Assembly (NCBI GenBank): GCA_002713215.1
Contig: PAVO01000014.1
Coordinates: forward strand, 1 to 64,000
Source: Crocinitomicaceae bacterium
GTDB taxonomy: Bacteria; Bacteroidota; Bacteroidia; Flavobacteriales_G; Salibacteraceae
DNA length: 64,000 nucleotides
Reading direction: 5' to 3'
Of this stretch, positions 7,327-27,528 are shown in pieces. The translations under genes were made by a program, and so were the position numbers. A model generated the notes under the pieces. It had not been told where the DNA came from and did not search any database. It saw only the letters and a program-made list of their open reading frames with translations. Position 1 is the first letter of the stretch, and every line of letters begins with the position of its first letter.

Positions 7327-7333
7327 GTGGCGG

Positions 7334-7341: not shown

Positions 7342-7470
7342 GGGATACTTAGTTGTTTACATCGCAGGTATTTAATGACGAATAATGGGGTATCTGGTCT
7401 TATAAATTGAGGGGAAGGTCAATAACTAAAATTTGTTTTCTATTTTTAGGGAGTTAAATAATGTGCTATT

Positions 7471-7614
7471 AAAGAATAGTGTGGGTTAAAGAACTTACCT
7501 TATAAAAAGAAACGTCATTCCTGCGAAAGCAGGAATCTAGAAATAACACTAGATTCCTTGTCAAGCAAGGAATGACGACTATTCCCACATTGTCCTTAAA
7601 CTATGCGTTAAATA
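7471..7614 (+). repeat. Palindromic intergenic repeat, left copy of an inverted pair
   Basis: This ~140 bp element contains two hairpins: TTCCTGC/GCAGGAA (7518-7534) and ATTCCTTG/CAAGGAAT (7553-7573). Its 40-nt core (7516-7555) matches the reverse complement of 8470-8509 at 38 positions, and weaker similarity runs through both flanks. It fills nearly all of the 294-bp gap between mtaB and the zinc-ribbon gene. GTCATTCCTGCGAAAGCAGG-type palindromes are common dispersed repeats in many bacterial genomes; no transposase is present. Confidence 0.8.
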
Positions 7615-7620
7615 ACCAGA

Positions 7621-8390: not shown

Positions 8391-8552
8391 TTGGCATATT
8401 GTATACTAATGTGGGAATAGCTGCCATTCTATGTTTGACAAGGAACCGACGAAGGAACTCAGTGAAACTAATCTAGTCTTATTTCTAGATTCCTGCTTTC
8501 GCAGGACTGACGTAACTTTTATATGGTAGTTTGGTTAACCCGCATTATCCTA
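8391..8552 (-). repeat. Palindromic intergenic repeat, right copy of an inverted pair
   Basis: Reverse-oriented relative of the element at 7471-7614. The core 8470-8509 differs from the left copy at only two of 40 positions and includes the perfect TCCTGC/GCAGGA hairpin. The second hairpin is degenerate and interrupted by extra sequence. Similarity continues into both flanks (GTGGGAATAG on one side, GGGTTAA on the other, read in matching orientation), so the unit is longer than the hairpin itself. Confidence 0.78.
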
Positions 8553-8565
8553 CAACACTCCGTAA

Positions 8566-10512
8566 TTAATTGCCCAACAGGCGAATGTTTTTTACAACAG
8601 TAAGCACATCATTCAAAAACTGATAATCCTTGGCATACATGATGTTTATTCTCGCAGCCTGAGGTTCACTTACATGGCCTATGGACTGAGAACAGGACAA
8701 TACTCCTGTTTTAATTACCGGTAAGTCGTGTAAATTGTTTCCGGAAACGCTATAACCAACCCAGCTTTTCTGGCCAATTAATACTTCCAGTAAGTTTCGA
8801 ACAAAACCAGACCTCTGTTTGACAAAAGCCAGTAGAATAGGCGAGAGTGCAATAAACAATAGCGTAAGCGACAAATCGAGTACCCGCTTAATCCGAAGGT
8901 TTTTTGCCTTGGTTATGGAATTAATATTCAGTACGGAATACAACTCACCGGATGTATTGATGGAATTACTACCAATAACAAAAAGACTTTCGGGTGGAGC
9001 TATTTTAAAATCGAGTGACTTATTATCCAATTGGCTCATTTGTTCAATAATGTTGGCGCTGCTTACGTTTTCGGCACAAAAAATTATTTCTTCAATTTTG
9101 AATATGCTCGAAATCTCCCTCAATTGCCTCATGTTACCAACGAAACCCTCTGGTAATTCCATCGAGGAACCGGGGAGTACCTTGGCAATAAACTCAGGTT
9201 GTATAATGGTCTGTTTTAGTAGGTTGATTACCCGTTTTATTTCATCCTGAGAACCAACAATAGCAAATCGTCTTTTGGTCGAAGTTCCTAACTTAAAGCC
9301 TCCTACTTTAAACCAGTGCAAAAGGTATCGGTCCATAATTCCCAGGCATAAGGTTGTTACGGCTCCAAGCAGTATAATTGCTCTTGAAAATCGATACGAT
9401 TCGGGCAAGAGACTGTATAGAATAAGCAGCAGGGCGGTACCGGCAGCGGTTCCCAAGAGGTAATTTTTTAGTAAGGTCGGTCGGTCATAACCACCACTAA
9501 AAAAGATGCTTAACACCCACACTAGGCTATAAATAGGTAGGAGCAGTTGGTACAATTCTGACGGAGTCTCAATACCTGTAATTGAATTATGAGCCCAAAC
9601 CAAACCAAAGAGACTGATGAGAATTAGTACAAAGTCCAGAATGGCCAGGTAGCCTTTTCTAAAGAAGTTGGTAAACAAGGTAATGGATGCCCTAAAGTAG
9701 ATGGCCAGATGTATGAGGAAATCAAGCAGTTTTGCATTTTTCGGGGAGAAATGTTTGTTGGCGAAAATGACCATGGCCCGGTAAAAAACGAAAACGTAGT
9801 TAACACTGGTTTTTTTGGTGCTTTCTCCCTTGTAGTGTATAATCTGGGTTTTAGGATAATAGTAATTCTTAAAGCCAGCCAGTTGAATTCGATAGGAAAG
9901 ATCTATGTCTTCTCCATACATAAAGAAGGTTTCGTCGAGTAGGCCAACTTTGTCGAGCGCTGTTTTTCTCAATAGCATAAATGCACCTGAGAGTACATCA
10001 ACTTCATGAATTTCCGAAGGATCCAAATAGGTGAGATGGTATTTTCCAAAGCGGCTGGAATGAGGAAAGAGCCTGGAGAAACCAAACATTTTATAAAAAG
10101 CAACTTCCGGGGTGGGCAATCCTCGTTTTGATTCGGGTAGAAAGTGCCCTTTTCCATCAATCATTTTAACACCAAGTCCACCGGCATCGGGGTGTTCTTC
10201 CATGAATGAAATTACCTTTTCAAAAGTATCTTCCTCTACCAGGGTATCTGGATTGAGAAGCAATACAAACTCTCCCTTTGCTTGATTAATGCCGAGGTTG
10301 TTTCCCTTGGAAAACCCTAAGTTTTTTGAAGAAGCGATTAATTGGAATTGGGGGAATTTTTGTTGAAGCATTTCCACCGAACCATCCATCGAATGGTTGT
10401 CGACAATGATAACCTCTCCTTCAATTTTGTCCAATGCCTTTTGCACCGAGATTAAGCACTGCTCAACGAAGTGCTTAACGTTATAATTGACAATAATTAC
10501 GGAGAGTTTCAA
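8566..10512 (-). CDS. GT2 glycosyltransferase fused to a degenerate phosphoglycosyltransferase
   Basis: A 648-residue fusion. Residues 1-250 are a complete family-2 glycosyltransferase: SVIIVNYN at 4-11, VIIVDNHSMDGS at 34-45, LGFSKGNNLGINQAKG at 65-80, NPDT at 87-90, and YGEDIDLSYR near 200. About five membrane segments follow (260-405), then a Rossmann-like cytosolic domain starting KRRFAIVGSQ, then a final membrane helix (about 542-562). This second half has the layout of WbaP/WcaJ-type polyprenyl-phosphate sugar transferases, but the terminal catalytic part is shrunken and lacks their recognisable DE-containing motif and FRSM block. It probably transfers a sugar at the membrane through the GT2 half only. 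Confidence 0.8.
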   Translation of the reverse strand: MKLSVIIVNYNVKHFVEQCLISVQKALDKIEGEVIIVDNHSMDGSVEMLQQKFPQFQLIASSKNLGFSKGNNLGINQAKGEFVLLLNPDTLVEEDTFEKVISFMEEHPDAGGLGVKMIDGKGHFLPESKRGLPTPEVAFYKMFGFSRLFPHSSRFGKYHLTYLDPSEIHEVDVLSGAFMLLRKTALDKVGLLDETFFMYGEDIDLSYRIQLAGFKNYYYPKTQIIHYKGESTKKTSVNYVFVFYRAMVIFANKHFSPKNAKLLDFLIHLAIYFRASITLFTNFFRKGYLAILDFVLILISLFGLVWAHNSITGIETPSELYQLLLPIYSLVWVLSIFFSGGYDRPTLLKNYLLGTAAGTALLLILYSLLPESYRFSRAIILLGAVTTLCLGIMDRYLLHWFKVGGFKLGTSTKRRFAIVGSQDEIKRVINLLKQTIIQPEFIAKVLPGSSMELPEGFVGNMRQLREISSIFKIEEIIFCAENVSSANIIEQMSQLDNKSLDFKIAPPESLFVIGSNSINTSGELYSVLNINSITKAKNLRIKRVLDLSLTLLFIALSPILLAFVKQRSGFVRNLLEVLIGQKSWVGYSVSGNNLHDLPVIKTGVLSCSQSIGHVSEPQAARINIMYAKDYQFLNDVLTVVKNIRLLGN

Positions 10513-10580
10513 CAGTGACTTTTGGGCGAAAATACGTTAACGAGTCAAAAATTGCGATATTGCCACAAGGATGAAATGTT

Positions 10581-11273
10581 TTAGATCATTCGGGAATTAA
10601 ACTTTTCAAACACCGAAATAGTTACGAACTGAAAAACAAACCAATACATAAGATCTTCAATTGGAAAGGACAGAATGTATGCCCCCTGGGTTTCTATGGA
10701 CTGGTAATTGAAAATTGTAATGCCCGAAAAATATCCGGTTAACGTTAGTTGAAGCACACAGTATGGAACGAGCAATGTCCAGCAGCAGACCAGGAAATTG
10801 GGAGTCCAATCAGGAGTAAACCACAAAAAGTAGAGCAGTGAAAAAAACAATAAAATTGCTGCAGACAATGTATGAAGGTCGTACCAATTAACATAGGTCA
10901 TGGGCAGCACGAGAAGGAATGGTATTAGCAGCAAAAGTCTAAGAAACCAACGGTTCCAGGAATATTGAAAACGGATTTTAATCCAGAGGTAGACCAGAAT
11001 AGTAATAGCAATTTCTGTGGCGATTAGGACGATTTTTTCTACGGGAACGCCTATTAGGTTTAACCCTAATGTATAGACTGAATTATATTCCCATAAACCT
11101 GCAAGAACGTAAATAATCTCCCAGAGAAGGGCAACTGCACCAACATACAATATGGTATTGAAAAAGGGTTTTTGTACTAGCCTGAATGGTTTTTTAAGAA
11201 GAAAGGTCAATAGCATCAAAAATGCTAATAGAATACAGTCTATAAATAGAAATTGTAGCAGGCCAATACTCAC
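10581..11273 (-). CDS. Lycopene cyclase-domain (CrtYcd-like) membrane protein
   Basis: A 230-residue, roughly seven-helix membrane protein. It has the two repeats of fused CrtYc/CrtYd lycopene cyclases: LWEIIYVLAGLWEYNS followed by GVPVEK (75-80), and LTGYFSGITIFNYQS followed by FPIEDLMYW (203-211). The family motif is PxE(E/D); the second copy is intact (PIED, 204-207) but the first reads PVEK, with Lys in place of the second acid. It could be a divergent or inactive cyclase. No phytoene synthase or desaturase lies nearby, although idi is 2.4 kb upstream on the same strand. It overlaps the preceding glycosyltransferase gene by 4 bp. Confidence 0.75.
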   Translation of the reverse strand: MSIGLLQFLFIDCILLAFLMLLTFLLKKPFRLVQKPFFNTILYVGAVALLWEIIYVLAGLWEYNSVYTLGLNLIGVPVEKIVLIATEIAITILVYLWIKIRFQYSWNRWFLRLLLLIPFLLVLPMTYVNWYDLHTLSAAILLFFSLLYFLWFTPDWTPNFLVCCWTLLVPYCVLQLTLTGYFSGITIFNYQSIETQGAYILSFPIEDLMYWFVFQFVTISVFEKFNSRMI

Positions 11274-12694
11274 AATTCGATGCTATTTTTCCTGTATAAT
11301 TGGTATTTAGGAAGCTGTTCAATGAGGGTATATCCATTAGGAACACTATCCTGAGTCAAGTGGTAATCCTGAAGTTTTCTGTAGTTGAGGCTATAGGTTC
11401 CATATCGTATCATATAACACTGAAACTCCCAATCTTCCCATAGGTTATGATAAATTCCAATGGTTGACCTTTCGGGTATGTGTTTTTTGATTTGTTCAAC
11501 CGTTTTAAGTCTGGTTTCGTGTCGGTTAAATTTACCATAAAGGCTATAGCTTATTCCAATGATGGTTACGAAAGTGACAACATTTATAATTGTAAATACG
11601 TTGGAAACCTTCTTTTCATTTTTGATGGTCTGGAGCCTGGACTGAAGTCCATAAGCAACTAATAAGGCAATGGAAATGGCATAGTAGGGGAAACTAGGTA
11701 AAATGTAAAACCCTTTTTGCACCATGGTAAGTGCCACCGGAGCAGAAGCAGAGATTCCAATAAGAAAAAAGAAAATGATAAACCTCTTTTGAGAACTAAC
11801 CCAGTTAAATTCCTTCAACCGTTTTCTCAACAAGAAAAGAATTAAGGCTGCTAAGGCGGCAACGTAAATCAATTCCCAAAAGATTCGTTCAAGAATAACA
11901 AATCGGGAATGTACGGTAGGGTATTCTGTAATCCTTCCCAGAAGCCTAAGATTTACGTAATTCAATAGATGTTCCCGGGCCGGTTCATAGGCAAATATGG
12001 CCAGGTAGCAAAGGGCCAAAGTACATGCGATTATTAGAAATGAGCTTAGGTATTTTTTTATTGAATGATTCCTAAAAACCAGGAAGTGAATTGGTATTAT
12101 TCCTAGTGTAAACAATCCTGGAACTCCCTTGCTGTAGGATGCAAGGAAAGTAAATATTCCGGCAAGTATGGGCCAATATAACTTAGGCTTTGATCGAAAA
12201 AGGTATTTAATGGTGAATAGTGCAGCGCACATGGTAAATATACCCATGGTATTTTCCTGTGCATTGTTTTGATACCCCCAATAGACCAATGGAATGGTGA
12301 GCCAAATAAAAATGGCCAGCCAATCCATTTTTTCTATGCCTTTAATATGGAATGAGACTTCTTTCCAAAGGGCTCTGAACAGCAGAATGGTTACCAGCAG
12401 GGTAGTAAAACTGTAGATTCTTTCAGATAAAAAGTGACTGTTAAAGAGCCTGAAGAATAGGGATTGGATACCAAAAACAAGGGGCGGGTGTTCATAAAAA
12501 ATAGGTGACTCGGCAATTCCTACTTCACTGAATCGCGGTTCGAAAAAGCTCCCGTACCCTTCTGCCATGTTTTTTGCCACAGACGCATATAACACGCCAT
12601 CCATAAACATTCCTTGTTGAACCAGAACGGGTATGGTAAGCGCACAGGCAAATGCAAAAACGAAAATATTTAACTGTAGATTAAGCTTATGCAT
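11270..12694 (-). CDS. GT39/ArnT-like integral membrane glycosyltransferase
   Basis: A 474-residue membrane protein with about ten helices and the PMT/ArnT (GT-C) layout: an N-terminal helix, a first periplasmic loop with the acidic/aromatic pair typical of lipid-phosphate sugar transferases (VLYASVAKNMAEGYGSFFEPRF, about 34-55), EHPPLVFGIQSLFFRL around 68-83, and a C-terminal soluble tail. Members use polyprenyl-phosphate sugars to modify lipid A, glycans or proteins outside the inner membrane. The acceptor is unknown. It lies directly upstream of the lycopene-cyclase-like gene (4-bp overlap) and 48 bp downstream of queD. Confidence 0.8.
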   Translation of the reverse strand: MHKLNLQLNIFVFAFACALTIPVLVQQGMFMDGVLYASVAKNMAEGYGSFFEPRFSEVGIAESPIFYEHPPLVFGIQSLFFRLFNSHFLSERIYSFTTLLVTILLFRALWKEVSFHIKGIEKMDWLAIFIWLTIPLVYWGYQNNAQENTMGIFTMCAALFTIKYLFRSKPKLYWPILAGIFTFLASYSKGVPGLFTLGIIPIHFLVFRNHSIKKYLSSFLIIACTLALCYLAIFAYEPAREHLLNYVNLRLLGRITEYPTVHSRFVILERIFWELIYVAALAALILFLLRKRLKEFNWVSSQKRFIIFFFLIGISASAPVALTMVQKGFYILPSFPYYAISIALLVAYGLQSRLQTIKNEKKVSNVFTIINVVTFVTIIGISYSLYGKFNRHETRLKTVEQIKKHIPERSTIGIYHNLWEDWEFQCYMIRYGTYSLNYRKLQDYHLTQDSVPNGYTLIEQLPKYQLYRKNSIEL

Positions 12695-12742
12695 GCAACA
12701 ATCAGATTTAACTAATTCGATGGGACATTTTGCTATGGGGTA

Positions 12743-13153
12743 TCAACTACCAGAATATTCAACACTATTGCGTTCGGTTTCGTAAAGCGTAATCTTCAAG
12801 GTTAGATGGTCTGCAACATGGGGCCTAAGTCGATTCCAGATAACCACGGCAATATGTTCAGCAGTAGGGTTTAGATTAGAAAACTCATCAATTTGCTCAT
12901 TCAGATTTTTGTGATCCAGGTAGGAAGTAACGTGTTCGTAAATAACTGTCTTTAGCAATTTCATGTCAATTACAAACCCTGTTTCGGGATCAATTTCGCC
13001 TTCAACTTCAGCCATTAATTTGTAGTTGTGACCATGGTAATGTGGGTTACTGCACTTACCAAAAACGGACTCATTTTTACTGTCGGTCCAATCGGGCCGA
13101 TACAATCGATGAGCTGCGTTAAAATGTGCTTTCCTTCTAACTTTTACTTTCAT
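12743..13153 (-). CDS. queD: 6-carboxytetrahydropterin synthase (QueD/PTPS family)
   Basis: A 136-residue enzyme that turns dihydroneopterin triphosphate into 6-carboxy-tetrahydropterin, the second step to queuosine. Counting from the chosen start, zinc ligands are His15 (AAHR) and His40/His42 (HGHNY); the catalytic Cys34 lies in GKCSNPH. The frame stays open upstream to 13177, but the start at 13153 is preferred because it forms a TAATG overlap with the idi stop codon and gives the usual MKVxVRRKAHFNAAH N-terminus. Pairing with idi is frequent in Flavobacteriia, without a clear metabolic reason. Confidence 0.92.
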   Translation of the reverse strand: MKVKVRRKAHFNAAHRLYRPDWTDSKNESVFGKCSNPHYHGHNYKLMAEVEGEIDPETGFVIDMKLLKTVIYEHVTSYLDHKNLNEQIDEFSNLNPTAEHIAVVIWNRLRPHVADHLTLKITLYETERNSVEYSGS

Positions 13154-13686
13154 TAGGCCGCCTTTTGCTTGTACCAATAAGCACGAAGTTTTGGAAATAC
13201 CAATTTAAACCATTCAGAGTATTTATTGGGAAAATGGTTGATATCATGTTCAATTACATCGAGAGGAACATAAACCCAGGCTTTTACTTCCCTTGGATTT
13301 GGATGGCAGTTTTCACTAAAATCACCAATAAATACATGGTCTAATTCATGTTCAATAAGTCCATTTTCCATCTTAGCCTCGTAAGTAAAATTAAATGTTT
13401 CTGAAAGCTTACATTCAATTCCCAACTCTTCCATTAGTCTGCGATTGGCAGCAATAGTTGTTGGTTCGTCTGGTCTGGGATGTCCACAACAGGTATTGCT
13501 CCACAGGTTAGCCGAGTGGTATTTACATTCGGCTCGTTGTTGAAGTAATAATTCTCCATTCTTATTGAATAGAAATATTGAAAACGCTCGGTGTAAAACA
13601 CCCTTGGAATGAGCTTCGTATTTTTCCATTCTACCTATTGCATTATCCTTATCATCAACCAGTATTACGTACTCCGATCCGTTCAT
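13153..13686 (-). CDS. idi: Isopentenyl-diphosphate delta-isomerase, type I
   Basis: A 177-residue Nudix-fold metalloenzyme that interconverts IPP and DMAPP for isoprenoid synthesis. The active-site Cys is Cys67 in NTCCGHP (64-70), and the Nudix-like helix contains RRLMEELGIE. Spacing and length agree with type I enzymes. It precedes queD with a 1-bp overlap. It could feed carotenoid, menaquinone and undecaprenyl pathways; the lycopene-cyclase-like gene further down the strand makes a carotenoid link tempting, but two unrelated genes intervene. Confidence 0.95.
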   Translation of the reverse strand: MNGSEYVILVDDKDNAIGRMEKYEAHSKGVLHRAFSIFLFNKNGELLLQQRAECKYHSANLWSNTCCGHPRPDEPTTIAANRRLMEELGIECKLSETFNFTYEAKMENGLIEHELDHVFIGDFSENCHPNPREVKAWVYVPLDVIEHDINHFPNKYSEWFKLVFPKLRAYWYKQKAA

Positions 13687-13756
13687 TTATTGTTTTTGAA
13701 TCTTGAATTAGTTTATCGTTAAACGTAGTATTATTACAATTTATACCTGAGGTGGT

Positions 13757-14422
13757 TCACATTTTAACACTAAATGTCCATCCTCGTTTTTGTTTTTTAT
13801 TGGAATTCTGAAATACACCTTTGCCTCCTTTAACCATGAGGTGAATCCCTACAAAAGAAACTCCGGAGCCTACTACTACGCCCAATGTACCCCATACTAC
13901 ATTTGAATTGTCAACGCTGTACTGATTTCCACCAAGCACAACGAGTAGTACACCTACTGTTGCAAGTCCTGTCCCGACAGCAAATTTGGCAAAACCGGCT
14001 GATCGCCAACCCATAGTTTTGCCAAATGATTTTCCCACCAGAATGAGGTCCTTAACCTTAACTTCTTTGCCATCAACAACAATTTTATCTTTTTTTATTT
14101 CTTCCAATGTGCCTTTAACCTTCTTCTTGCTGGTTTTGGTCTGGTACCGAATGGTTTCACCAACCTTGAAGTAACGTTGTATTTTGTCTTTTTTATGCGC
14201 GGCGATTAGTGCCGGACCGATATCCTTCTTTTTGGTCTTTTCCTTTTTGCCTTTTTTGCTCTTTTTTCTGTCTTTTTTCTCCTGTACAAGTTCTGAGCTT
14301 TTCCCTTGGCTCATTGTCTCAGGGTTTTCATCCGAAATGACATTTTGATCCTCCTGAGAAATCCCGACGATAGGTATTGCCAGACCAAATAGTAAAAGAG
14401 ATATTAGTGTTTTTAAGGTCAT
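13757..14422 (-). CDS. Exported Lys-rich hypothetical protein
   Basis: A 221-residue protein with a signal peptide (1-22), a very lysine-rich linker (about 40-75, runs of KKGKKEK), a small beta-rich segment with YFKVGETIRYQTKTSKKKVKGTLEEI that resembles the SH3-like 'uniform surface' strands of Bacteroidota exported proteins, and two C-terminal hydrophobic segments (about 145-168 and 175-195). I do not recognise a family. Its ATG overlaps the stop of the upstream ElyC-like gene by one base (TAATG), so the two are made together; an envelope role is likely. Confidence 0.6.
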   Translation of the reverse strand: MTLKTLISLLLFGLAIPIVGISQEDQNVISDENPETMSQGKSSELVQEKKDRKKSKKGKKEKTKKKDIGPALIAAHKKDKIQRYFKVGETIRYQTKTSKKKVKGTLEEIKKDKIVVDGKEVKVKDLILVGKSFGKTMGWRSAGFAKFAVGTGLATVGVLLVVLGGNQYSVDNSNVVWGTLGVVVGSGVSFVGIHLMVKGGKGVFQNSNKKQKRGWTFSVKM

Positions 14423-15186
14423 TAATTGTATCCCATTAGTTTATAGACAACAGTTCCTATCCATTCATGAATAACCCTATTCCAGCTCATTATTATGTAA
14501 GCATCCGGTAGGAAAAGGTAGTCAAATAACCATTTGTGTTTTCCGGAAATTCCATCGACACAAACAGGTACAGCTTCTATTCCAACTTTGTTAAAACAGG
14601 CCAATGACCTGGACATATGTGTACAGGAAGTAATTAGTAAAACAGGGCCTGTTATTTCCAGGCTATCAAGAACAACTTTACAGTTAACAGCATTTTGCCA
14701 GGTGTTTTTTGATGCGCTTTCTACCAATATATCCTTCTTTGGAATGTTGAGTCGCAAAGCAAGTTCAGCAATATATTGTCCCTCGGGAGGAGTATCATGG
14801 AAAATATTTCCGTGTCCTCCGCAAAATAAGATTTTCTTAATTTTCTTTTGCTGGTATAATTCCAAACCTGTAACAAGCCGATCCGCAGCTTCATTAAAAT
14901 TAACTTGATGAGCAGCGGGTGCCATAATGGAATACCCTCCAAGAACCACTCCAACAGGATACTTGCCCTGTATGCTCTCAAGGTTGGTCATTGGAGGTTC
15001 CCAGATTCCATTAACTTGGTTATGAATAAACTGGTTCGAAAAAATGTAGAGTAAAATGAGAGAAGTCCAAATAAGCTTTTTTCCTCTTGCCTTATTCTTT
15101 AGTATAAGCCCCAGCAACAAGGTGAAAAAAATCCAGGTTACCGGTGTCGACAGAAAATAGAGAAGCTTGGAAAATAAATGAAACAT
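14422..15186 (-). CDS. YdcF/ElyC/SanA-family envelope protein (DUF218)
   Basis: A 254-residue protein with two N-terminal membrane helices (about 5-27 and 37-55) and a DUF218 domain. Typical elements are VGVVLGGYSIMAP (80s), a segment ending CGGHGNIF (120s), PKKDILVESASKNTWQNA (about 148-165) and ITSCTHMSRSLACFNKVG. ElyC of E. coli, with the same architecture, affects peptidoglycan assembly and undecaprenyl-phosphate use. Fifteen bases separate it from the upstream T9SS-protein gene, and it is coupled to the downstream Lys-rich exported protein. Confidence 0.85.
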   Translation of the reverse strand: MFHLFSKLLYFLSTPVTWIFFTLLLGLILKNKARGKKLIWTSLILLYIFSNQFIHNQVNGIWEPPMTNLESIQGKYPVGVVLGGYSIMAPAAHQVNFNEAADRLVTGLELYQQKKIKKILFCGGHGNIFHDTPPEGQYIAELALRLNIPKKDILVESASKNTWQNAVNCKVVLDSLEITGPVLLITSCTHMSRSLACFNKVGIEAVPVCVDGISGKHKWLFDYLFLPDAYIIMSWNRVIHEWIGTVVYKLMGYN

Positions 15187-18142: not shown

Positions 18143-20857
18143 TTAATTCAATAAAACTTTTTGCCTGAAATAAACCTGGCCATTGCCCTCAATCTGAAGG
18201 ACGTAAATTCCTTTAGCGAGTTGGCTAATTGACAAGCTATTTGTTTTTGCATCGATTGAACCCGAAATAGTTACTTTACCTAAAGAATTGTAAAGTTTGT
18301 AATGCTGGTTATCAGATAGATTTTCTAATTCAATATTGAGAATATCGTTTGTCGGGTTGGGGAATACTTTTACGTTAATGGCAGCGACGGTATTTTTTAC
18401 ATAACTTGCATATCCGGATTTTGTTAAGTGCGTACGAAATACACCTGCGCCAAACGTTGAAACCCATAATGAACTGTCAAGCTCCCTGTATTTGATATCG
18501 GAAACCACATTGTTTTGAATGGAATGCTGGGCTACGTGCTCCCAATTGGTATTCATACTATCCAGGTTTTTGGTTTGAAAAAGACCAACGCTAGTTCCTA
18601 CAAAATAAATGGTAGAATCAATAGTGTGAACAATTTTACCTACCCGGCAAGATGGACCGTTATTCAGATATTCGAATCCTGATGGGAGTCCGGGTGTAGG
18701 TGTTCCTTCCAGGTTTCCAGAGATATTGGACCAGTTTGTACCACCATTGTTGCTATAAAAAATGCTGTAGGTATTGTAATTCGAGAAGACAACCATTAAA
18801 CGATTAGAATTATTAGGATCGACTGAAATACTATTGATGTACCCCCTACCATCAATTGAGTTGGTAATGTCGGTCGTAGTAGGATTCGATTTTATGTTTT
18901 CAATTTTTAGAATACTCCCACTGGTACTGCCTAAATAGATTATCCCTTTTTCGCTTTCAGCTACTACAATTGCGGAAGGTTGAAACCCTGAAGGAAGGCT
19001 GTATTTGTTCCAATTTTTTGTTTGTTTGTCAAAAGTGTCATCCACTACTATTTCATTTAATTTCTCGTTCCACCAAAGCTCTTCTCTAATAGGAAGGTAC
19101 ATGGTGTTGTTATCATGAGGATCAAGGATATAAGGATTTATAAACAGGTAGTTAGCAGAGGTCAGGGGATCAATTCTTTTCCAATTGGTTCGTTCCCCAT
19201 TTTTATCGATTACAATTTTTGCAATACCATCAAGTTGCTTGGAGGCATAAATTACTGAATCAACCGGGCTAAATGCGCAAAATGCACCATCGTAAGACAT
19301 GGGAAGGGTCCAGGGTGCAGTAGACTTTCCTGTAACCGAAAGCAATGTTCCATTGTCTTGCAAGCCACCCATTAACCGGTTCGATTTTTTTTGTTGATCG
19401 ATGGTTAGGGTATAAAACTGGGTAGAGGCATAGGATGTATTTAAAGATTCCCAGGTAACCGAAGTTGCATAAAGATTTTGAGTGCGGTGAATTCCGCCGT
19501 CACTGCCCGTTAAAAGGATTTTTGAATTTGCTGGGTGGAACACTATCGTTTGTAAATCGGGATGGTGGTTGGGGTACAATTGAAAGTCCGGGATTTTGGT
19601 TTTTTCTCCATAACCTCCGGCATACCTTGTATTGGTATCGGTTTTAAACCCGTCGTCAGATAAATACAAATTGGTTCCTCCAATAGCAACTAAATTTGAA
19701 TCATGGGGTGAGACAGCTATATCCATGCAATAAGCACTCTGGGAGATATAATCATCAAACTGTTCGGGACCGGTAGGAAGATTTGCCGATAGGTTTTCCC
19801 ACTTTCCATCGGAGCCGGTTCCATTTCCTTTCAAATAGGTGTATTTGTATAAACTGTGGTGTTCAACCGAACCTCTAAAGTCATACCCAGCTTTACCTTT
19901 ATTGGGGGTTACTGCAAGGACATAAATTCGCTCACCATTGAATTGGTCATCAGTTGCTAAAACAATTCGCCCTGTTTGTGCAGGTATGGTTCCTGAACTA
20001 ATGTTGATCCAGGTAGTTCCATTGGTACTTCTAAAGATCCCATAGTTGCTGAATGCATTGTTATCAAACGATGCATACCAGGTGCCGGATGTTGTTTGAG
20101 CCAGGTCAGTAAACCCGCCTGAGGTAGAGGTAGTACCTTGTACGAGCTTCCAGTTAATTCCTTTGTCCTTGCTTTGGTAGATTCCTGACGTGTTGGCAAG
20201 GTACACATCGGAGTTTTGGTTGGAAACTATAATTCTCCACCCTCTATCAGTGGAATCTTTGGTTTGTGGAGAAGGGTTTCGAAGTGAGTTTAAGGTGATC
20301 CAGGTTTTCCCTCCATCGGTAGATTTAAGAATTCCATCACCGGCATAGGCCGAGTTTCCGGAAATTTGATTTCCTCCGCGAAGTTCTCCGGTACAGGCAT
20401 ACCAGGTGTTTTCCGAACCCGTGTTTTTATCCTGTGCAATTGAAGTAATGGCCAGGTTTTGTTCCCTGGTACTCACTTTGTTCCAGGACTTGCCCCCATC
20501 TTCACTTCTGAATATTCCACCACTTGCTGAACCCGCCAGTAATACCATGTGGTTTGTAATATCATATTGCAAGGCTCTTGTTCGGCCACCTATATTGTTC
20601 GGGCCTAACCATTCCCACTTTAGATGTTGAGACCTACTTTCGCTGGCAACTGAATTAGCGAACTCCAATTCTCTGGAACGAACATTATTCGGGATTTTAC
20701 CGGTTTGCGGATCGGCAAGCATTTGATTTTCCCAAATAGCTCGTTGTTTACTATTGGTCATAGCTTCACCGGTAATGGAATTGTTTTTTCTTTGGAGTAA
20801 TAAAAATCCTAAACCGGCTAGAAATACAATTGCTACGGAAATAATTCCTTTTTTCAT
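18143..20857 (-). CDS. Large secreted Asp-box (BNR/VPS10-like) protein with T9SS sorting domain, paralog B
   Basis: A 904-residue paralog of the gene downstream. It has the same order: N-terminal hydrophobic helix (about 4-21), the shared motif DPQTGKIP plus RSRELEFAN, then Asp-box repeats (SEDGGKSW, STDGGKTW, SKDKGINW, SNNGGTNW), then a T9SS type A sorting domain opening FPNPTNDIL and ending in KVLLN. Shared signature stretches such as PNHHPD and LDPHDNN/LDYNDNN show that the two arose by tandem duplication. They are 118 bp apart on the same strand. Cargo role on the cell surface or outside the cell; substrate unknown. Confidence 0.85.
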   Translation of the reverse strand: MKKGIISVAIVFLAGLGFLLLQRKNNSITGEAMTNSKQRAIWENQMLADPQTGKIPNNVRSRELEFANSVASESRSQHLKWEWLGPNNIGGRTRALQYDITNHMVLLAGSASGGIFRSEDGGKSWNKVSTREQNLAITSIAQDKNTGSENTWYACTGELRGGNQISGNSAYAGDGILKSTDGGKTWITLNSLRNPSPQTKDSTDRGWRIIVSNQNSDVYLANTSGIYQSKDKGINWKLVQGTTSTSGGFTDLAQTTSGTWYASFDNNAFSNYGIFRSTNGTTWINISSGTIPAQTGRIVLATDDQFNGERIYVLAVTPNKGKAGYDFRGSVEHHSLYKYTYLKGNGTGSDGKWENLSANLPTGPEQFDDYISQSAYCMDIAVSPHDSNLVAIGGTNLYLSDDGFKTDTNTRYAGGYGEKTKIPDFQLYPNHHPDLQTIVFHPANSKILLTGSDGGIHRTQNLYATSVTWESLNTSYASTQFYTLTIDQQKKSNRLMGGLQDNGTLLSVTGKSTAPWTLPMSYDGAFCAFSPVDSVIYASKQLDGIAKIVIDKNGERTNWKRIDPLTSANYLFINPYILDPHDNNTMYLPIREELWWNEKLNEIVVDDTFDKQTKNWNKYSLPSGFQPSAIVVAESEKGIIYLGSTSGSILKIENIKSNPTTTDITNSIDGRGYINSISVDPNNSNRLMVVFSNYNTYSIFYSNNGGTNWSNISGNLEGTPTPGLPSGFEYLNNGPSCRVGKIVHTIDSTIYFVGTSVGLFQTKNLDSMNTNWEHVAQHSIQNNVVSDIKYRELDSSLWVSTFGAGVFRTHLTKSGYASYVKNTVAAINVKVFPNPTNDILNIELENLSDNQHYKLYNSLGKVTISGSIDAKTNSLSISQLAKGIYVLQIEGNGQVYFRQKVLLN

Positions 20858-20894: not shown

Positions 20895-21860
20895 CTAGAC
20901 TTTTTGACTTTCTTTCTTAAGAATATCTCCCACCTTACCTTCAAGTTTTGTATAGGCATCAATATCGTTAATGTTTATGTGGGTACTTCCATCTTCAAAT
21001 ACCTTATACGCAGGTTTAAATTTAGCGTTAAAAATAATTTCCTTAAGTGTATAAGAATATCGGCTATGAACCTCCTGACTGAAAGAATCATCAAAGCCTT
21101 TGATGAGTACAACCACCTGTGGGTTCAACTTTATCACCTCCGAAGCAGATTTCCCATATAGTGGACTGCCTTCATCAATAGGATGAACAATAGTCCAGTT
21201 TAGGGGGAAGAAATCAATTTTGTTGATGGCTAAATTCAATTGATCGTATGATCGAATATACATACCATTTACCTTCCTTGAGGTGGCTAAGAGCACCTTG
21301 GCACTCATGTCCATCAAAAGATTGTCCCTCCGGTTGACTATTCTAAACATGAGGGCAAATCCGTTTTCATAGGGTGCTAATAGAATGTTTTTGCTGTATT
21401 TAATGCGAGCGGATGGCTTACTAAACCGACCGTAGAGAAGTCCAGTAGCAATAGAAAAACTCATAAATCCAAACATGGCCTGAAACCCGGCAATTATATT
21501 GATGTCCGTAGCAATTGGAGATAATCCTCCGTAGCCAAGGGTTGTAAATGTCTGAAAGGAAAAGAAAATGGCTATCAAAAAGTCGTTGGTGGTATCCAGG
21601 TCATTAACTCCGGCTAGGCCATCTATTCCGGCAATCAGATAAAGAACGGCAAACAGTCCATTAGCAACGATATACCCTCCTATAAGAACCAACACAAATT
21701 GAGTCCAGGAAACATTTAAAAGAAAGTGATAGAGGTTGTTAATTTTGCTTCCAACACCTTCGCGCACCACATTAAAGGTGCCATCAGGATTAATTATCCT
21801 GGTGGTTTTTCCATCATATTTTTCACCTAACCCCGGATCTTGTAAATGCGTATCCGCCAT
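20895..21860 (-). CDS. Inward-rectifier (KirBac-type) potassium channel
   Basis: A 321-residue channel subunit. TM1 spans about 53-77, the pore helix leads to the selectivity filter TLGYG at 107-111, TM2 spans about 121-145, and residues 146-310 form the cytoplasmic immunoglobulin-like domain characteristic of Kir channels (for example FALMFRIVNRRDNLL and WTIVHPIDEGSPLYG). A tetramer would conduct K+ across the inner membrane. The filter has Leu where TIGYG is usual, a conservative change. It lies 93 bp downstream of the response-regulator gene on the same strand and might belong to its transcript. Confidence 0.93.
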   Translation of the reverse strand: MADTHLQDPGLGEKYDGKTTRIINPDGTFNVVREGVGSKINNLYHFLLNVSWTQFVLVLIGGYIVANGLFAVLYLIAGIDGLAGVNDLDTTNDFLIAIFFSFQTFTTLGYGGLSPIATDINIIAGFQAMFGFMSFSIATGLLYGRFSKPSARIKYSKNILLAPYENGFALMFRIVNRRDNLLMDMSAKVLLATSRKVNGMYIRSYDQLNLAINKIDFFPLNWTIVHPIDEGSPLYGKSASEVIKLNPQVVVLIKGFDDSFSQEVHSRYSYTLKEIIFNAKFKPAYKVFEDGSTHININDIDAYTKLEGKVGDILKKESQKV

Positions 21861-21953: not shown

Positions 21954-22658
21954 CTAGTCGTTACGCAGTGAAAATCCAATTTTTGGAATAGTATCAATAC
22001 GCAGGCTTTTATCCGCTTGTAAATACTTTCTAAGGCGCGAAACAAAAACATCCATGCTTCTACCCAGGAAGTAGTCATTTTCCCCCCAAATTAGCTTTAA
22101 TGCAATTTCCCGTTCCAGCGTCTGATTAAGGTTTAAGCATAGCAAACGCAATAAATCGGCTTCCTTTGAGGTTAAGGTTTTAGTTACATTCCCAATGGTT
22201 AGTTCCAGATTGTTATAATCGAATGTTATACTGCCCGGAGTATAAACCTCTTTTACTACGTCGGTTCTCTTTTTCTGAAATCGGGTGGCCCTCTTTATAA
22301 CCGCATCAATACGAGCAACCAGCTCTGCCATCACAAACGGTTTGGATAGGTAGTCGTCTCCTCCAGCCTTGTAACCCTCTGCCTTGTCATCAATAGAACC
22401 TTTGGCAGTTAGAAAAATGATCGGAATGTCCGGGTTAATCACCCTGATTTCTTTTGCCAGTGAATAGCCATCCTTTTTGGGAAGCATTACATCCAGAATA
22501 CACAAGTCAAAATAGTTGGAATAGAATTGTTCAAACCCGGCGACACCATCTTTTGCCCACGTTATTTCAAATCCGCTTTCTTTAAGGTTATCTTTTATCA
22601 CAAAGCCTAGGCTTGGGTCATCTTCTACCAGAAGTATTGATTTTTTTTCAGTTTGCAT
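21954..22658 (-). CDS. OmpR-family response regulator (RprY-like)
   Basis: A 234-residue regulator: receiver domain (1-120) with the phospho-acceptor Asp56 (ILDVMLP, 54-60), the acidic pair VEDD at 11-14 and Lys in LSKPF; then a winged-helix DNA-binding domain (about 138-232) containing LTSKEADLLRLLCLN. It is 4 bp downstream of the kinase gene and surely its partner. The pair resembles RprX/RprY of Bacteroides in kinase layout. Since the kinase gene is transcribed divergently from the copper-uptake genes, that operon is a plausible target. Confidence 0.93.
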   Translation of the reverse strand: MQTEKKSILLVEDDPSLGFVIKDNLKESGFEITWAKDGVAGFEQFYSNYFDLCILDVMLPKKDGYSLAKEIRVINPDIPIIFLTAKGSIDDKAEGYKAGGDDYLSKPFVMAELVARIDAVIKRATRFQKKRTDVVKEVYTPGSITFDYNNLELTIGNVTKTLTSKEADLLRLLCLNLNQTLEREIALKLIWGENDYFLGRSMDVFVSRLRKYLQADKSLRIDTIPKIGFSLRND

Positions 22659-22662
22659 ATTG

Positions 22663-23937
22663 CTACTTATTGGGGAGTTTTAAGCAAAATGTACTTCCCT
22701 CTTTTAATTTACTTTTTACGCTTATTTCACCACCATGCTCTTCAACCATTATTTTAACGTAATGGAGTCCAAGACCAAATCCTTTCACATTGTGTACATT
22801 GCCTGTTGGAACCCTATAAAAGCGATCAAAGATTAGTTTGCTCACTTCCGGTGAGAGTCCGATACCGTTATCCTGAATTTCCACAATTATATTCCCGTTT
22901 TTATTTTTCGTGCTGATCATAATATGAGGCAGGTGTTCGCAATACTTAATGGCATTGTCTATTAAGTTGGTAATGATATTGCTAAAATGGGTTTCATCTC
23001 CATTAATGGTGCAATTGGTTGCCATGAGTTTTGTGTTGATGTGCCCATTCTTTTCATCGAGCAGGGGTGTAAAATTGCTAATGACCTCCTGTATCATTTT
23101 ATGGACATCCAGTTCAATCAACTTCAGGTCGACCTTATCCTTTTCCAGGGAGGCTATTTGCAGCACCTTTTCAACCTGTCGTTGCATTCTCAGGTTTTCA
23201 CGTTGGATGATGGCTGCGTAGTTCTTAAGTCGGTCCGGTTGCCCGGTAATTTGAGTGTCCATAAGTACCTCTGATGAAAGTGCAATGGTAGAAATTGGGG
23301 TTTTTAATTCGTGGGTCATGTTATTGATAAAATCCGTTTTTATTTCGCTCAGCCTTTTCTGCCTTAAGATTACACTTATGGTATAGGCGAAAAAAAGGAC
23401 TATGATGAGTAATAAGAGCGAAGAATAGAACCAAAATTTCAATCGGCCCAAAACAATTTCGGATTTATTGGGAAAATACACCGAGAAATAATGCCCATCC
23501 TCACTTTTCCAGTTCACCTTTATACTTGGATCCTCTTTTTCCTGGGCTTTTCCCTGATTGATGTATACAGCCTTGGTATAAATCACAGAGTCATTGAAAC
23601 AGTCGTATAAGTTGTACTCAAAGTCGAGATTGATTTCCTGATTCTTAAACTCCCGTGTCAAAACCTGCTCTGCATAATATGGGTCCAACGGTTCAAGAAT
23701 TTTAACTACAAAAGTGCTTTTGTCTATTTGCTTTACGGGGTCCACCATATAGGTTGAATCTCCCAAATGGTACTGGATTTCTTTGGAAACAAGCTTCAAG
23801 GACTTTGTTATGTCATAGTTTACCTGAGTTTCCTGAAGGCGATAAGCACGCATTACCCAAATGGTTTGAACCACCAGCAAGGCACTTAATAATAGTGCCG
23901 CGAGAACAATAATGGAACGAATGGTACTTCTCTTCAC
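22663..23937 (-). CDS. Membrane sensor histidine kinase (RprX-like)
   Basis: A 424-residue kinase. TM1 is at about 8-28, a periplasmic sensor of about 138 residues follows, and TM2 is at 168-191. The HisKA motif MTHELKTP holds the phospho-acceptor His209. The HATPase has an N-box (NLIDNAIKY), G1 (DNGIGL) and G2 (GFGLGLHYVK). The periplasmic part is not rich in Met, His or Cys, so direct metal sensing is not evident. It forms an operon with the response regulator and shares a 107-bp divergent intergenic region with the copper-uptake genes. Confidence 0.93.
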   Translation of the reverse strand: MKRSTIRSIIVLAALLLSALLVVQTIWVMRAYRLQETQVNYDITKSLKLVSKEIQYHLGDSTYMVDPVKQIDKSTFVVKILEPLDPYYAEQVLTREFKNQEINLDFEYNLYDCFNDSVIYTKAVYINQGKAQEKEDPSIKVNWKSEDGHYFSVYFPNKSEIVLGRLKFWFYSSLLLLIIVLFFAYTISVILRQKRLSEIKTDFINNMTHELKTPISTIALSSEVLMDTQITGQPDRLKNYAAIIQRENLRMQRQVEKVLQIASLEKDKVDLKLIELDVHKMIQEVISNFTPLLDEKNGHINTKLMATNCTINGDETHFSNIITNLIDNAIKYCEHLPHIMISTKNKNGNIIVEIQDNGIGLSPEVSKLIFDRFYRVPTGNVHNVKGFGLGLHYVKIMVEEHGGEISVKSKLKEGSTFCLKLPNK

Positions 23938-24044: not shown

Positions 24045-24419
24045 GTGAAGTTAATCAGAATCATAGCAATTTCGTTTCTCAGCCTCATGGTTGGGTTTTC
24101 GGGATACAACCTGAATAAGCTGGTAGATTACCTGATTAACTTCGAAGAAATTAGTAATGAGTTGTGTGAAAACCAGGATACCGATATAACCCAGTGTAAT
24201 GGTATCTGCTATTTGGTCGATCAAATCATCGAAGTGCAAAAGCCAGATGAGGGTATTACTATGGAATACGTTCAGCTGAATTTAGACTTTCATTTTTACT
24301 TTTTTCAAGGTGCAGAAGAGCTCGCAAGTGTTAGATCAGTGGTTCTTCATTCATTTGACTTTCTGGCTCGCGAAACCTGCAGTGGTTACTTTGAGCAAGC
24401 TGTTCCCCCTCCTTGTTAG
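24045..24419 (+). CDS. Small membrane-anchored Cys protein of the copper locus
   Basis: A 124-residue protein starting at a GTG. An N-terminal hydrophobic segment (3-20) acts as signal or anchor. Cys51 and Cys55 lie in QCNGICYL, a variant of the CNGKCYL motif seen in small Bacteroidota proteins encoded next to metal-related TonB receptors; Cys41 is nearby and the C-terminus ends in VPPPC. The CxxxC spacing suits Cu(I) binding. No better start exists, because the hydrophobic segment begins immediately. It is the first gene of a three-gene plus-strand set with a lipoprotein and a receptor. Copper handling is inferred from context. Confidence 0.6.
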   Translation: MKLIRIIAISFLSLMVGFSGYNLNKLVDYLINFEEISNELCENQDTDITQCNGICYLVDQIIEVQKPDEGITMEYVQLNLDFHFYFFQGAEELASVRSVVLHSFDFLARETCSGYFEQAVPPPC

Positions 24420-24550
24420 TTATTATATAGTCCACCATAATTCCAACAACGTGAGTGTATTTATGCGCTCAAGTCAAATTAAAATGGTTTATACCCGCAT
24501 GTTTAATTCCGGGATAATAAATCGATTAAGTAACTATATAATAAACTACA

Positions 24551-25468
24551 ATGATTAAGAATAAATTAATAAACACGATGTTCATTTTTAGCATCGTATT
24601 AGGACTGGGAACAACTACTACATCTTGCAAGAAAGAAGGATGTACAGATGAGAATGCTACCAATTATGATAAAGATGCTAAAAAGAATGACAACTCTTGC
24701 GTATACGCAAGTAATGAACCCGACAAGGGATACAATACTACTGGGTTAACTGAGATTGCTAAAGGTTATGCCGTTGGTGCTGCTGCCGAAGTTGTTATCT
24801 ATGCTAAGGAAGATTTGTTTACGGGATACAATTTTCTTTATGTATTAACCCTGGATTCTGCTACAAGGGGGCTGTTAAGTGCGGGACATCTTTCTATAAA
24901 CCCAATGATGGACATGGGAATGCATAAGCATTCATCTCCGGTTGAGAATCCAATAGGCGAAAAACCCAATGCAAATGGGTTATATGAAGCTCAGACTTTC
25001 TTTGTAATGCCTAGTGGTAATGGAACATGGGAATTAACGGTTAATTATCGCAATCATTCAATTCACAAGGATGGAGTCGCTAAAATTCCAGTTACAGTTA
25101 AACAACCTACGAATAGGGTTATGGATTCCTTTATTGATAGTACGTCAACCAACTTTGATAAGGTGTTCATTTCCTATGTACTTCCGGAAAAACCAATGGT
25201 AGGGTTAAACGATATGGAAATTGCCATTTTCTATAAAAAGAGTATGATGGAATGGCCTGCCAGAAGCGATTTTACCGTTGAAATTGAACCTACTATGCCA
25301 AGTATGGGACATGGTTCCCCTAACAACGTACATCCAACTCATATTTCTAACGGTCACTATAAGGGCAAAATAAACTACTCCATGACCGGTATGTGGAAAA
25401 TTGATGTCAAAATCATGAGGAATGGAAAAATTGTAAATCGAAACAACTACTTCGAATACACTTTGTAA
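24551..25468 (+). CDS. Met/His-rich lipoprotein with two YtkA/FixH-like domains
   Basis: A 305-residue lipoprotein with lipobox TTSC (Cys26). After it comes the short Bacteroidota motif C-TDENATNYD...SC-Y (31-51). Two immunoglobulin-like units follow. Each has a Met/His cluster: PMMDMGMHKH in the first and PTMPSMGHGS in the second, in the same place within the fold, just before or within 'LYEAQTFFVMPSGNGTWELTV' and 'HYKGKINYSMTGMWKIDV'. This matches YtkA/FixH-like periplasmic domains. Clusters of Met and His strongly suggest Cu(I) binding. It stops 11 bp before the receptor gene and probably hands copper to, or receives it from, that receptor. Confidence 0.75.
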   Translation: MIKNKLINTMFIFSIVLGLGTTTTSCKKEGCTDENATNYDKDAKKNDNSCVYASNEPDKGYNTTGLTEIAKGYAVGAAAEVVIYAKEDLFTGYNFLYVLTLDSATRGLLSAGHLSINPMMDMGMHKHSSPVENPIGEKPNANGLYEAQTFFVMPSGNGTWELTVNYRNHSIHKDGVAKIPVTVKQPTNRVMDSFIDSTSTNFDKVFISYVLPEKPMVGLNDMEIAIFYKKSMMEWPARSDFTVEIEPTMPSMGHGSPNNVHPTHISNGHYKGKINYSMTGMWKIDVKIMRNGKIVNRNNYFEYTL

Positions 25469-25479
25469 CTTCTACTGAA

Positions 25480-27528
25480 ATGAATATGAAACAAATAGGA
25501 GGGATAGGCACAATGCTTATCTTCTCCTTTTTTTCTCTTTTTGGGCAGGTTACAGATTCAGCTGCAAGTGAGGAGGTTTTGTTCTTCCAATTAAAAGCTT
25601 ATGAGTTAGAGGTCGTTAGTGTCTTATCTGATTCTCAGCAAGTAAATAACTTAACCTTAAATCCAATCGCCAGTAATACGACCTCGACCATGGATGAGGT
25701 ATTGGAGAAAACACCCCAGGTTCAATTGATAAAGAGAGGTTCTTTTGCCTATGACCCTCAAATTAATGCCTTAGGCGGAGGACAGATAACCGTTAGCATT
25801 GATGGAATGAGAATATTCGGTGCCTGCACCGACAAAATGGATCCATCCAGTTCGTACATAGAACCTATAAACTTAAAAAAAGCTGAAGTTTCCTGCCATT
25901 CCAATGCTTCAATGCAGGGCAGCAATGTTGGAGGGAGCCTAAACCTGAGAACACGAAAAGCTAAATTTTCAACCATCGCAGGCGAACTTAATGGTTCACT
26001 CAATTCGGTTTCCATGGGGCAGGATTTTAGTGGAGGAGTAAATCTGGGTGGTAAGAAGTTGGCAATTAGAATGAATGGTGCAATTAGAAACCATGATAAT
26101 TACAAAGCGGGTGGAGGAGAGATCATTAAATATACCCAATACCAAAAACAAAACCTTTCTATAAACCTTCGTAACAGGCTTGGGGAAAAATGGATACTGG
26201 AAGGAGATTATTTATACGACGAAGCAAATGACGTAGGTTTTGCCGCCTTACCGATGGACGTAGCTATTGCACGAACACACCTTGCATCGGTTACGGCAAC
26301 TGGTTATAGCGCAATTTCGGGCATAGACAAAATCCAGATTAAGGTTTATGGAAATCAGGTTTACCACTTGATGGATGATTCAAAAAGACCTGATGAGGAG
26401 GTAGCCATGCGCATGGATATGCCTGGTTGGAGCGACACCTATGGGGCTTTTGCAAAGCTTAATCTCGGTCGAATTGGAAAACACAAAATTCAATTAAAGA
26501 CTGACTATTACTACAATTTTAGGCGAGCAGAAATGACTATGTTTGATCCAAATGGTGGAGCCGATATGTTTATGCTTACCTGGCCTGATGTACAACGAAA
26601 TGTTTTGGGAGTAGCGGGTGTAGATAATATAGAATTGAACGATAAGAATTCATTGGCTTTTTCCGGTAGAGTTGATTGGGCCACTACTGGTATTGAAGAT
26701 GGTTTTGGAAAGAGACAGCTAACCGGTTTAGGTTATTCGGGAGATGAAGTTTATGTTCATTTTCCCTATTCAATATCAGTATTATGGAATAGGAGAATTG
26801 GAAGTAATTACCAGGTGTCATGGTCCACTAGTTCTTCCAGCAGACTGCCGACAACAAGTGAAATGTATGGCTACTATTTGTTCAATAAGGAAGACGGTTA
26901 CGACTATATAGGAAGACCAGATATTAAAACTGAAAAATCACTAAGGACTAACCTGGAACTAAAAAGAAAGAACAGGAAGGTAGATTGGACCGTTACAGCA
27001 GGCTATAATCGACTCTTTGATTTTATCTACGGTGTTTTAGATTCAAATTCATCAGCCATGACTATTGGAGGTAACGGTGTGAAATATTTTCAGAACTTAT
27101 CGTGGGCTCAAATTATTAACTCATCTTTTCAATTGGATTATCTCCCATTTAAAAATTGGTCCATTAGTACTCGCTTCAACTACAATTGGGGGGAGAAATA
27201 CGACAAAAGTTCTTTGCCCCAAATTCAGCCCTTAACCAATGTTTCGGCCGTAAAATTCAAACGAAATAAATTCTTCTTACTACTTGAAAGCGAAGCAGGA
27301 TCTTCTCAACTACTTATTGACCCTGAGTTTGGAGAGGATAAAACCCCTTCATGGGCGGTACTGAATGTACGTGCTGGCTACCAGATTAAAGTTACCAAGA
27401 AAAGTACCTTGGATATTAAAACAGGTATTTTGAACCTGTTTGATCATTATTATTACCGGCATCTGGATTGGGGAAATGTTCCCAGGGCTGGAAGAAACTT
27501 TTATTTAAATGTTGGTTGGAAGTTCTAG
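25480..27528 (+). CDS. TonB-dependent outer-membrane copper receptor (OprC/NosA-like)
   Basis: A 682-residue TonB-dependent receptor: signal peptide (1-22), plug domain (about 55-170) and 22-strand barrel. The plug has SIDGMRIFGACTDKMDP (106-122), nearly the OprC/NosA signature. It supplies Cys116 and Met120 (CxxxM), and the barrel supplies His296 and Met298 in YHLMDD (HxM). In Pseudomonas OprC a CxxxM-HxM set binds copper. The last residues (YLNVGWKF) form a proper terminal strand with C-terminal Phe. With the Met/His lipoprotein and small Cys protein upstream, import of copper is the likely role. Confidence 0.88.
   Translation: MNMKQIGGIGTMLIFSFFSLFGQVTDSAASEEVLFFQLKAYELEVVSVLSDSQQVNNLTLNPIASNTTSTMDEVLEKTPQVQLIKRGSFAYDPQINALGGGQITVSIDGMRIFGACTDKMDPSSSYIEPINLKKAEVSCHSNASMQGSNVGGSLNLRTRKAKFSTIAGELNGSLNSVSMGQDFSGGVNLGGKKLAIRMNGAIRNHDNYKAGGGEIIKYTQYQKQNLSINLRNRLGEKWILEGDYLYDEANDVGFAALPMDVAIARTHLASVTATGYSAISGIDKIQIKVYGNQVYHLMDDSKRPDEEVAMRMDMPGWSDTYGAFAKLNLGRIGKHKIQLKTDYYYNFRRAEMTMFDPNGGADMFMLTWPDVQRNVLGVAGVDNIELNDKNSLAFSGRVDWATTGIEDGFGKRQLTGLGYSGDEVYVHFPYSISVLWNRRIGSNYQVSWSTSSSSRLPTTSEMYGYYLFNKEDGYDYIGRPDIKTEKSLRTNLELKRKNRKVDWTVTAGYNRLFDFIYGVLDSNSSAMTIGGNGVKYFQNLSWAQIINSSFQLDYLPFKNWSISTRFNYNWGEKYDKSSLPQIQPLTNVSAVKFKRNKFFLLLESEAGSSQLLIDPEFGEDKTPSWAVLNVRAGYQIKVTKKSTLDIKTGILNLFDHYYYRHLDWGNVPRAGRNFYLNVGWKF

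Follow-up and report, generated by a model that had tools for sequence, protein, structure and literature searches.

The window examined here is a stretch of 64,000 nucleotides (nt) from a Crocinitomicaceae bacterium (assembly GCA_002713215.1, contig PAVO01000014.1), in which three open reading frames (ORFs) lie on the forward strand at 24045-24419, 24551-25468 and 25480-27528, running in line as the original prediction had stated. They encode, in this order, a small exported protein with a CxxxC motif, a lipoprotein with two Met/His clusters and an OprC-like TonB-dependent receptor, and the trio, which recurs across Bacteroidota, is most likely a copper-uptake system. Two samples were used to follow it through the phylum: an unselected draw of 247 genomes, and 80 named loci from the closest relatives, mostly Flavobacteriaceae, the fractions obtained from these loci being not free of kinship. 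Conservation was counted in 41 receptor, 40 lipoprotein and 21 small-protein sequences drawn from the phylum.

The receptor (25480..27528, forward strand) is a protein of 682 amino acids (aa) in which Pfam recognizes a plug (PF07715) and a barrel (PF00593). Its best curated relative is the NCBIfam TonB-copper model TIGR01778 (118 bits), models of heme receptors and of ZnuD matching less well, and its best solved relative is OprC, both by sequence (6fok, E 6.9e-15) and by fold, since a Foldseek search with the AlphaFold2 model (predicted local distance difference test, pLDDT, 84.8) has OprC in all of its top 27 matches, ahead of PhuR and ZnuD. Once its residues are placed on OprC by pairwise hidden Markov model (HMM) alignment (OprC numbering from PMC8610252), the plug half of the putative copper site, C116-T-D-K-M120 (25825..25839), falls on OprC C143/M147, and the barrel half, H296-L-M298 (26365..26373), on H323/M325. 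CxxxM and HxM each occur once in the whole protein, and Cys116, Met120, His296 and Met298 are invariant in 41/41 sequences that are 25-35% identical to the window copy, so that the earlier claim of a receptor with both halves of the OprC copper site is borne out. Conservation extends to the methionine track of OprC: M259 (26254..26256; 41/41) aligns with M286, and M310-R-M312-D-M314 (26407..26421) with M339/M341/M343 (M312 and M314 in 41/41, M310 in 26/41), while no counterpart of track residue M348 was matched in the receptor. Silver in OprC sits on Met286/339/343 and Met341/343/348 (PMC8610252); because M259, M310, M312 and M314 stand for Met286/339/341/343, the low-affinity track is kept alongside the principal site.

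The second gene (24551..25468, forward strand) encodes a 305-aa lipoprotein whose lipobox Cys26 (24626..24628; 40/40), predicted to be lipidated, is followed by KKEGCTDE. Pfam calls one YtkA domain (PF13115, E 2.6e-12, 47.6 bits against a cut-off of 25.9), which is also found in 27 of 28 relatives, and the structural model (pLDDT 89.3) contains two beta-strand domains of the CrdA/YtkA beta-sandwich type. The best solved match is Helicobacter pylori CrdA (9ll2 and 9ll4; apo and silver-bound): 9ll4 superposes on the first domain with Z 13.4 and a root-mean-square deviation of 2.2 Å over 104 residues, the next other protein reaching Z 9.2, and the family profile matches CrdA by sequence over the second domain (E 2.6e-6), with the Met-rich segment and the M-x-G-x-W strand aligned. 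CrdA itself binds copper, its likely site being this Met-rich motif (PMC9182242).

The Met/His clusters of the lipoprotein are PMMDMGMHKHSSP (residues 118-130, 24902..24940, with M120, M122 and H127) and PTMPSMGHGSPNN (residues 247-259, 25289..25327, with M249 and M252 in 40/40). Behind each of them lies a Met-containing G-x-W segment, and M278 (25382..25384) is likewise kept in 40/40 sequences. The original prediction had described two matching clusters in two tandem domains. Both clusters are indeed there, but the first is weaker across the phylum (M120/M122/H127 in 28/28 nearer relatives and in 22-23/40 of the phylum draw), and BLASTP detects no likeness between the two domains, whose kinship is argued instead from their shared fold and from the match of CrdA to each of them. 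A Met-rich loop followed by an M-x-G-x-W strand, in the same fold, is common to CrdA (PMC9182242) and YtkA/CtaK (PMC13344008); in contrast to CrdA, which is a single periplasmic domain without His, the window lipoprotein has tandem domains, is paired with a receptor and is probably exposed at the surface. The segment behind the lipobox, GCTDENATNYDKDAKKNDNSC (window 24638-24703, lipoprotein residues 30-51), has counterparts of the same kind in seven other ORFs of the genome and in the nearest relative (L080), and is thus regarded as a shared module outside the copper site.

The trio stands side by side on one strand in 80/80 loci and is headed in all of them by the small gene, the order being small-lipoprotein-receptor in 57 and small-receptor-lipoprotein in 23; it is because the order changes while the company is retained that a joint function is proposed. 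Among the 247 genomes, all 31 that hold the receptor also hold the lipoprotein gene (4.1 expected, p 2e-37), and 31 of the 33 with the lipoprotein hold the receptor. One receptor without neighbours (L055) was not counted as a counterexample to adjacency, since it stands close to the end of a contig and the same genome has its lipoprotein and small genes on a different one. No receptor relative was found in the plasmid records searched. The earlier proposal that the OprC-type receptor and the Met/His lipoprotein form a copper system is supported.

Copper-related neighbours are frequent. The nitrous oxide reductase gene nosZ, together with nosL/D/F/Y, lies within about 10 kb of the trio in 34 of the 68 loci with enough flanking sequence. 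At least three layouts occur, with the nos genes upstream of the trio and on its strand, downstream of it, or divergent from it. In the unselected phylum draw, nosZ is held by 19/31 receptor genomes (10.8 expected, p 0.001) and lies no more than 13 kb from the receptor in 9 of the 19 genomes holding both, so that the search for the same trio near Nos genes, suggested with the original prediction, gave a positive answer in both samples. MbnP/MbnH genes are found behind many copies of the small gene. In the genome of the window itself, contig C36 carries at 7026-14549 (L161) a complete clade II nos cluster, which also includes genes for fasciclin and cytochrome c and has an Rrf2-type regulator at its end.

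The first gene of the trio (24045..24419, forward strand) has a GTG start and encodes a 124-aa protein with an N-terminal signal or anchor, for which no family was matched in Pfam or NCBIfam. Its putative copper site, C51-N-G-I-C55 (CxGxC; 24195..24209), has C51, G53 and C55 in 21/21 sequences, as is also the case for a further cysteine, C41 (24165-24167), and it ends in PPPC, the Pro-Pro-Pro (24405..24413; two of the prolines in 21/21) standing one residue before the stop as a putative ribosome-arrest motif. The CxxxC pair noticed originally is therefore present and conserved, but a third invariant cysteine and the C-terminal Pro-Pro had gone unmentioned. The CxGxC motif is found in all 108 collected members of the family, and Pro-Pro occurs within the last 8 residues of 99% of them (in most, 1-5 residues ahead of the stop) as against 1.1% of other, comparably short genes. 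Between the two, the spacing is held at 64-71 residues (about 68): in 47 members less than 60% identical to one another, identity amounts to 52% in the Cys region and 50% at the end up to Pro-Pro, and to a near-random 12% in the 64-71-residue spacer. The intergenic gap behind the small gene is longer and tighter than the second gap of the trio (median 99 vs 52 nt, p 4e-10; quartiles 84-116 vs 20-68 nt). The family is present in 102/247 genomes, far more widely than the receptor, and 25 of 30 small-gene loci adjoin lipoprotein/receptor or MbnP/MbnH genes, the rest adjoining other receptor or Met-rich outer-membrane genes. In Flavobacterium-type loci (L047-L050, L053, L054 and L196) another small gene stands behind the receptor, at the head of MbnP/MbnH (L174), and in L196 a receptor is preceded by a tandem pair of small genes.

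Copper-responsive leaders of the CruR/CutF type, which carry CxxC/CxxxC and a C-terminal RAPP or Pro-rich end, govern downstream copper genes (PMC9426467, PMC9973294). A conserved Cys region and Pro-Pro, separated by a near-random spacer of fixed length, is the design of these proteins, and it is on this account that the small protein is assigned to a putative leader. Whereas the original prediction made it part of a copper relay, it is conserved in the way of a copper-responsive leader peptide, and by analogy its role is moved here from relay to regulation, with a confidence somewhat better than even. Like CruR of Bordetella pertussis and CutF of Rhodobacter capsulatus, it is a short exported protein with CxxC/CxxxC, C-terminal Pro-Pro and a conserved spacing, and in those systems too an upstream ORF, of the DUF2946 family, heads copper genes, in the case of CruR a copper receptor gene. 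It differs from them in its spacing (about 68 vs 45 residues), its ending ((H/R/P)PP vs RAPP) and its extra invariant cysteine, and it has no detectable kinship with them. The spacing of about 68 residues would place the Cys motif past the Sec channel with the ribosome at Pro-Pro, and the motif would thus sense periplasmic copper. Many CutF-like proteins have been reported in Bacteroidota (PMC9973294), possibly including members of the small family, for which reason first sight of the family is not claimed. Bacteroidota-phylum genes of the DUF2946 family ending in RAPP or RGPP were also seen (L162-L164, L166-L169), ahead of genes for a TonB-dependent receptor, a CobW-type protein or a secreted protein.

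The small protein could instead be a working membrane-anchored protein, such as a copper chaperone or a thiol or copper reductase. A working protein was also the view of the original prediction, and it agrees with the N-terminal signal or anchor, with the three invariant cysteines and with the two or three copies present in some genomes. It is nevertheless a somewhat doubtful alternative. Against it stand the nearly constant number of residues (about 68) between Cys motif and end at 12% identity, the near-invariant Pro-Pro shortly ahead of the stop and the longer, tight gap behind the gene. In addition, a genuine DUF2946 gene takes its place in L060, which reads DUF2946-MbnP-MbnH-lipoprotein-receptor, an order that looks as if one leader type had replaced the other.

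Bacteroidota are familiar with surface lipoproteins that are encoded beside their own TonB-dependent receptor and capture its cargo, as in SusD-SusC, HmuY-HmuR and BtuG-BtuB, from which the present pair differs in having a metal ion as its presumed cargo and a lipoprotein with the CrdA/YtkA sandwich fold. The signal for surface export of lipoproteins in this phylum consists of a polar residue or Lys and then two acids at positions +2 to +6 (PMC5080379). An acidic pair at these positions is found in 47 of 75 relatives of the lipoprotein (63%; for example CSNDDE, CSSDDD or CKKDD) as against 22 of 178 other lipoproteins encoded in the same loci (12%; Fisher p 2e-15). As a consequence of these export-like signals in the family, the lipoprotein probably lies at the surface and acts outside the cell and ahead of the receptor, which the window copy, whose own signal is weak, may do as well, and a transfer directed from lipoprotein to receptor is favoured; that the lipoprotein passes copper to the receptor is plausible.

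The opposite arrangement would have the lipoprotein in the periplasm and downstream of the receptor, taking copper from it to NosZ, to oxidases or to an inner-membrane importer in the manner proposed for CtaK/YtkA and CrdA. In Bacillus subtilis, copper assembly of cytochrome oxidase is supported by CtaK and by the YcnJ YtkA domain (PMC13344008), H. pylori CrdA is periplasmic, and the export-like signal is weak in the window copy and lacking in many distant members. Set against this are the frequency of acidic signals, 63% among the nearer members vs 12% among the other lipoproteins of these loci, and the coupling, strictly one to one, to a TonB-dependent receptor, which is typical of surface partners, and a periplasmic lipoprotein is considered unlikely.

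The reading that we favour, with moderate confidence, is that of an outer-membrane copper-acquisition operon made of a leader, a surface lipoprotein and an OprC-like receptor. From the motifs, folds, linkage and conservation observed, we infer the following roles. The nascent small protein would be exported and its CxGxC, once outside the ribosome, would feel copper, while pausing at the C-terminal Pro-Pro would set downstream expression, most likely off at plentiful copper, both by analogy with CruR/CutF. The lipoprotein would be tethered to the outer membrane, probably on its outer face, and would bind copper, mainly Cu(I), at the Met/His sites of its CrdA-like domains and give it to the receptor, where it would travel along the methionine track to the CxxxM-HxM site before TonB powers import to the periplasm. 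There, copper would feed periplasmic cuproenzymes, foremost nitrous oxide reductase where the trio adjoins nos. The more specific proposal, in which a leader family proper to Bacteroidota serves as nascent-chain copper sensor and controls an importer whose surface CrdA-type lipoprotein loads an OprC-type receptor, is put forward tentatively, with a confidence somewhat short of even.

Several observations pull in the other direction. TIGR01778 is the best curated relative of the receptor, yet its 118 bits stand below a cut-off of 472, which is why the receptor is named OprC-like on its sequence and not filed as a TIGR01778 equivalog. In the signal of the window lipoprotein itself, CKKEGCTDE, positions +2 to +6 hold a single acid, and the acidic pair is absent from many members of the lipoprotein family outside Bacteroidia. 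The small family gave no profile match to DUF2946 (PF11162; hhalign probability 0.3%). Pairing between stop and start behind the leader was found in 13% of relatives at p 0.05, which is no enrichment, and the RNA of the leader gap folds below the energy of shuffled sequences (mean z -2.05) to an extent also seen in the second gap (-2.22), hence not specifically. Lastly, 12/31 receptor genomes are without full nosZ, and the genome of the window, although it has a clade II NosZ, keeps its nos cluster on another contig; because of these two facts, nitrous oxide reductase cannot be the sole client, and other cuproenzymes must be served too.

The same operon might protect the cell by sequestering copper at its surface, a reading suggested by the nearest solved structure of the lipoprotein, CrdA, which is a named copper resistance determinant. 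The company of an importing receptor of the OprC type (PMC8610252), the linkage to nos, a copper consumer, and the repression by copper of the oprC gene and of the crtA (bfrG) operon make protection very improbable. It is scarcely credible, finally, that the copper motif is a relic in a receptor whose real cargo is heme, zinc or a metal chelate, as the heme and ZnuD models might hint, since four copper ligands and three track Met stay invariant at 24-34% identity to the window copy and OprC outranks every other fold.

Around the leader of the window, a 22-nt inverted repeat (82% complementary, forward strand) has its 5' arm over the leader stop (24410..24431) and its 3' arm over the lipoprotein start (24533-24554), and its 12-bp core has p 0.0035 against shuffles in the window. 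Were a ribosome to stop at the leader end, it would hold this repeat open. For attenuation by an intrinsic terminator no support was found, as 5 of 79 leader gaps carry a terminator, fewer than the second gap. An Rfam scan returned nothing above threshold, a promoter scan returned no more matches than shuffled sequences, and, looked for via terminators, folding and pairing, an RNA element common to the family behind the leader could not be shown. Upstream of the trio and divergent from it lies a two-component system (21954..23937, reverse strand; kinase 22663-23937, OmpR-type regulator 21954-22658), which is a possible regulator of the window copy and was rejected as regulator of the family, the block adjoining the trio only in L080. 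The next gene (20895-21860, reverse strand) encodes an inward-rectifier potassium channel homologue (IRK_C, Ion_trans_2), and the block of channel, kinase and regulator is kept beside the trio in L080 at 57-59% identity. It is followed at 18143-20857 (reverse strand) by a gene whose 904-aa product resembles sortilin/Vps10 and carries the Por_Secre_tail sorting domain of type IX secretion.

Among known systems, the closest are OprC of Pseudomonas aeruginosa and NosA of Pseudomonas stutzeri (PMC8610252), TonB-dependent receptors for ionic copper with the same fold, CxxxM-HxM and methionine track. NosA shares with the trio its link to nitrous oxide reductase, and OprC shares a leader gene ahead of it, in P. 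aeruginosa a cruR homologue (PMC9426467). In contrast, the window receptor is about 19% identical to OprC, scores below the TIGR01778 cut-off and is always paired with a dedicated lipoprotein, a partner undescribed for OprC in the literature surveyed. An extracellular copper protein, azurin, has been proposed to load the OprC-type receptor in P. aeruginosa (PMC6907878), but azurin is secreted and unlinked, and its interaction with OprC was not reproduced by others (PMC8610252). Novelty, as first claimed, was too strong a word for the receptor, since G2EC70 of Bizionia argentinensis (PMC11213822) is likewise a Bacteroidota OprC-like receptor with CxxxM-HxM, with NosL a few transcription units away; the passages located in that paper mention neither the lipoprotein nor the leader gene. 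Each part of the trio is of a known kind, and what appears new is the combination of an OprC-type receptor with its own CrdA-type lipoprotein and a leader; a literature search restricted to open-licence papers found no description of a receptor joined to a CrdA-type surface lipoprotein and a leader.

To our knowledge, outer-membrane copper uptake in Gram-negative bacteria is poorly known, OprC, MbnT and CrtA making up nearly the whole list. If the reading favoured here is true, the pairing with a surface lipoprotein, which seems to run through a whole phylum, would answer how scarce ionic copper gets to an OprC-type receptor. The frequent proximity of nos ties copper supply to nitrous oxide reduction in Bacteroidota, where copper limits the removal of a greenhouse gas, and the small family, wide and unnamed, becomes testable as a copper-sensing leader.

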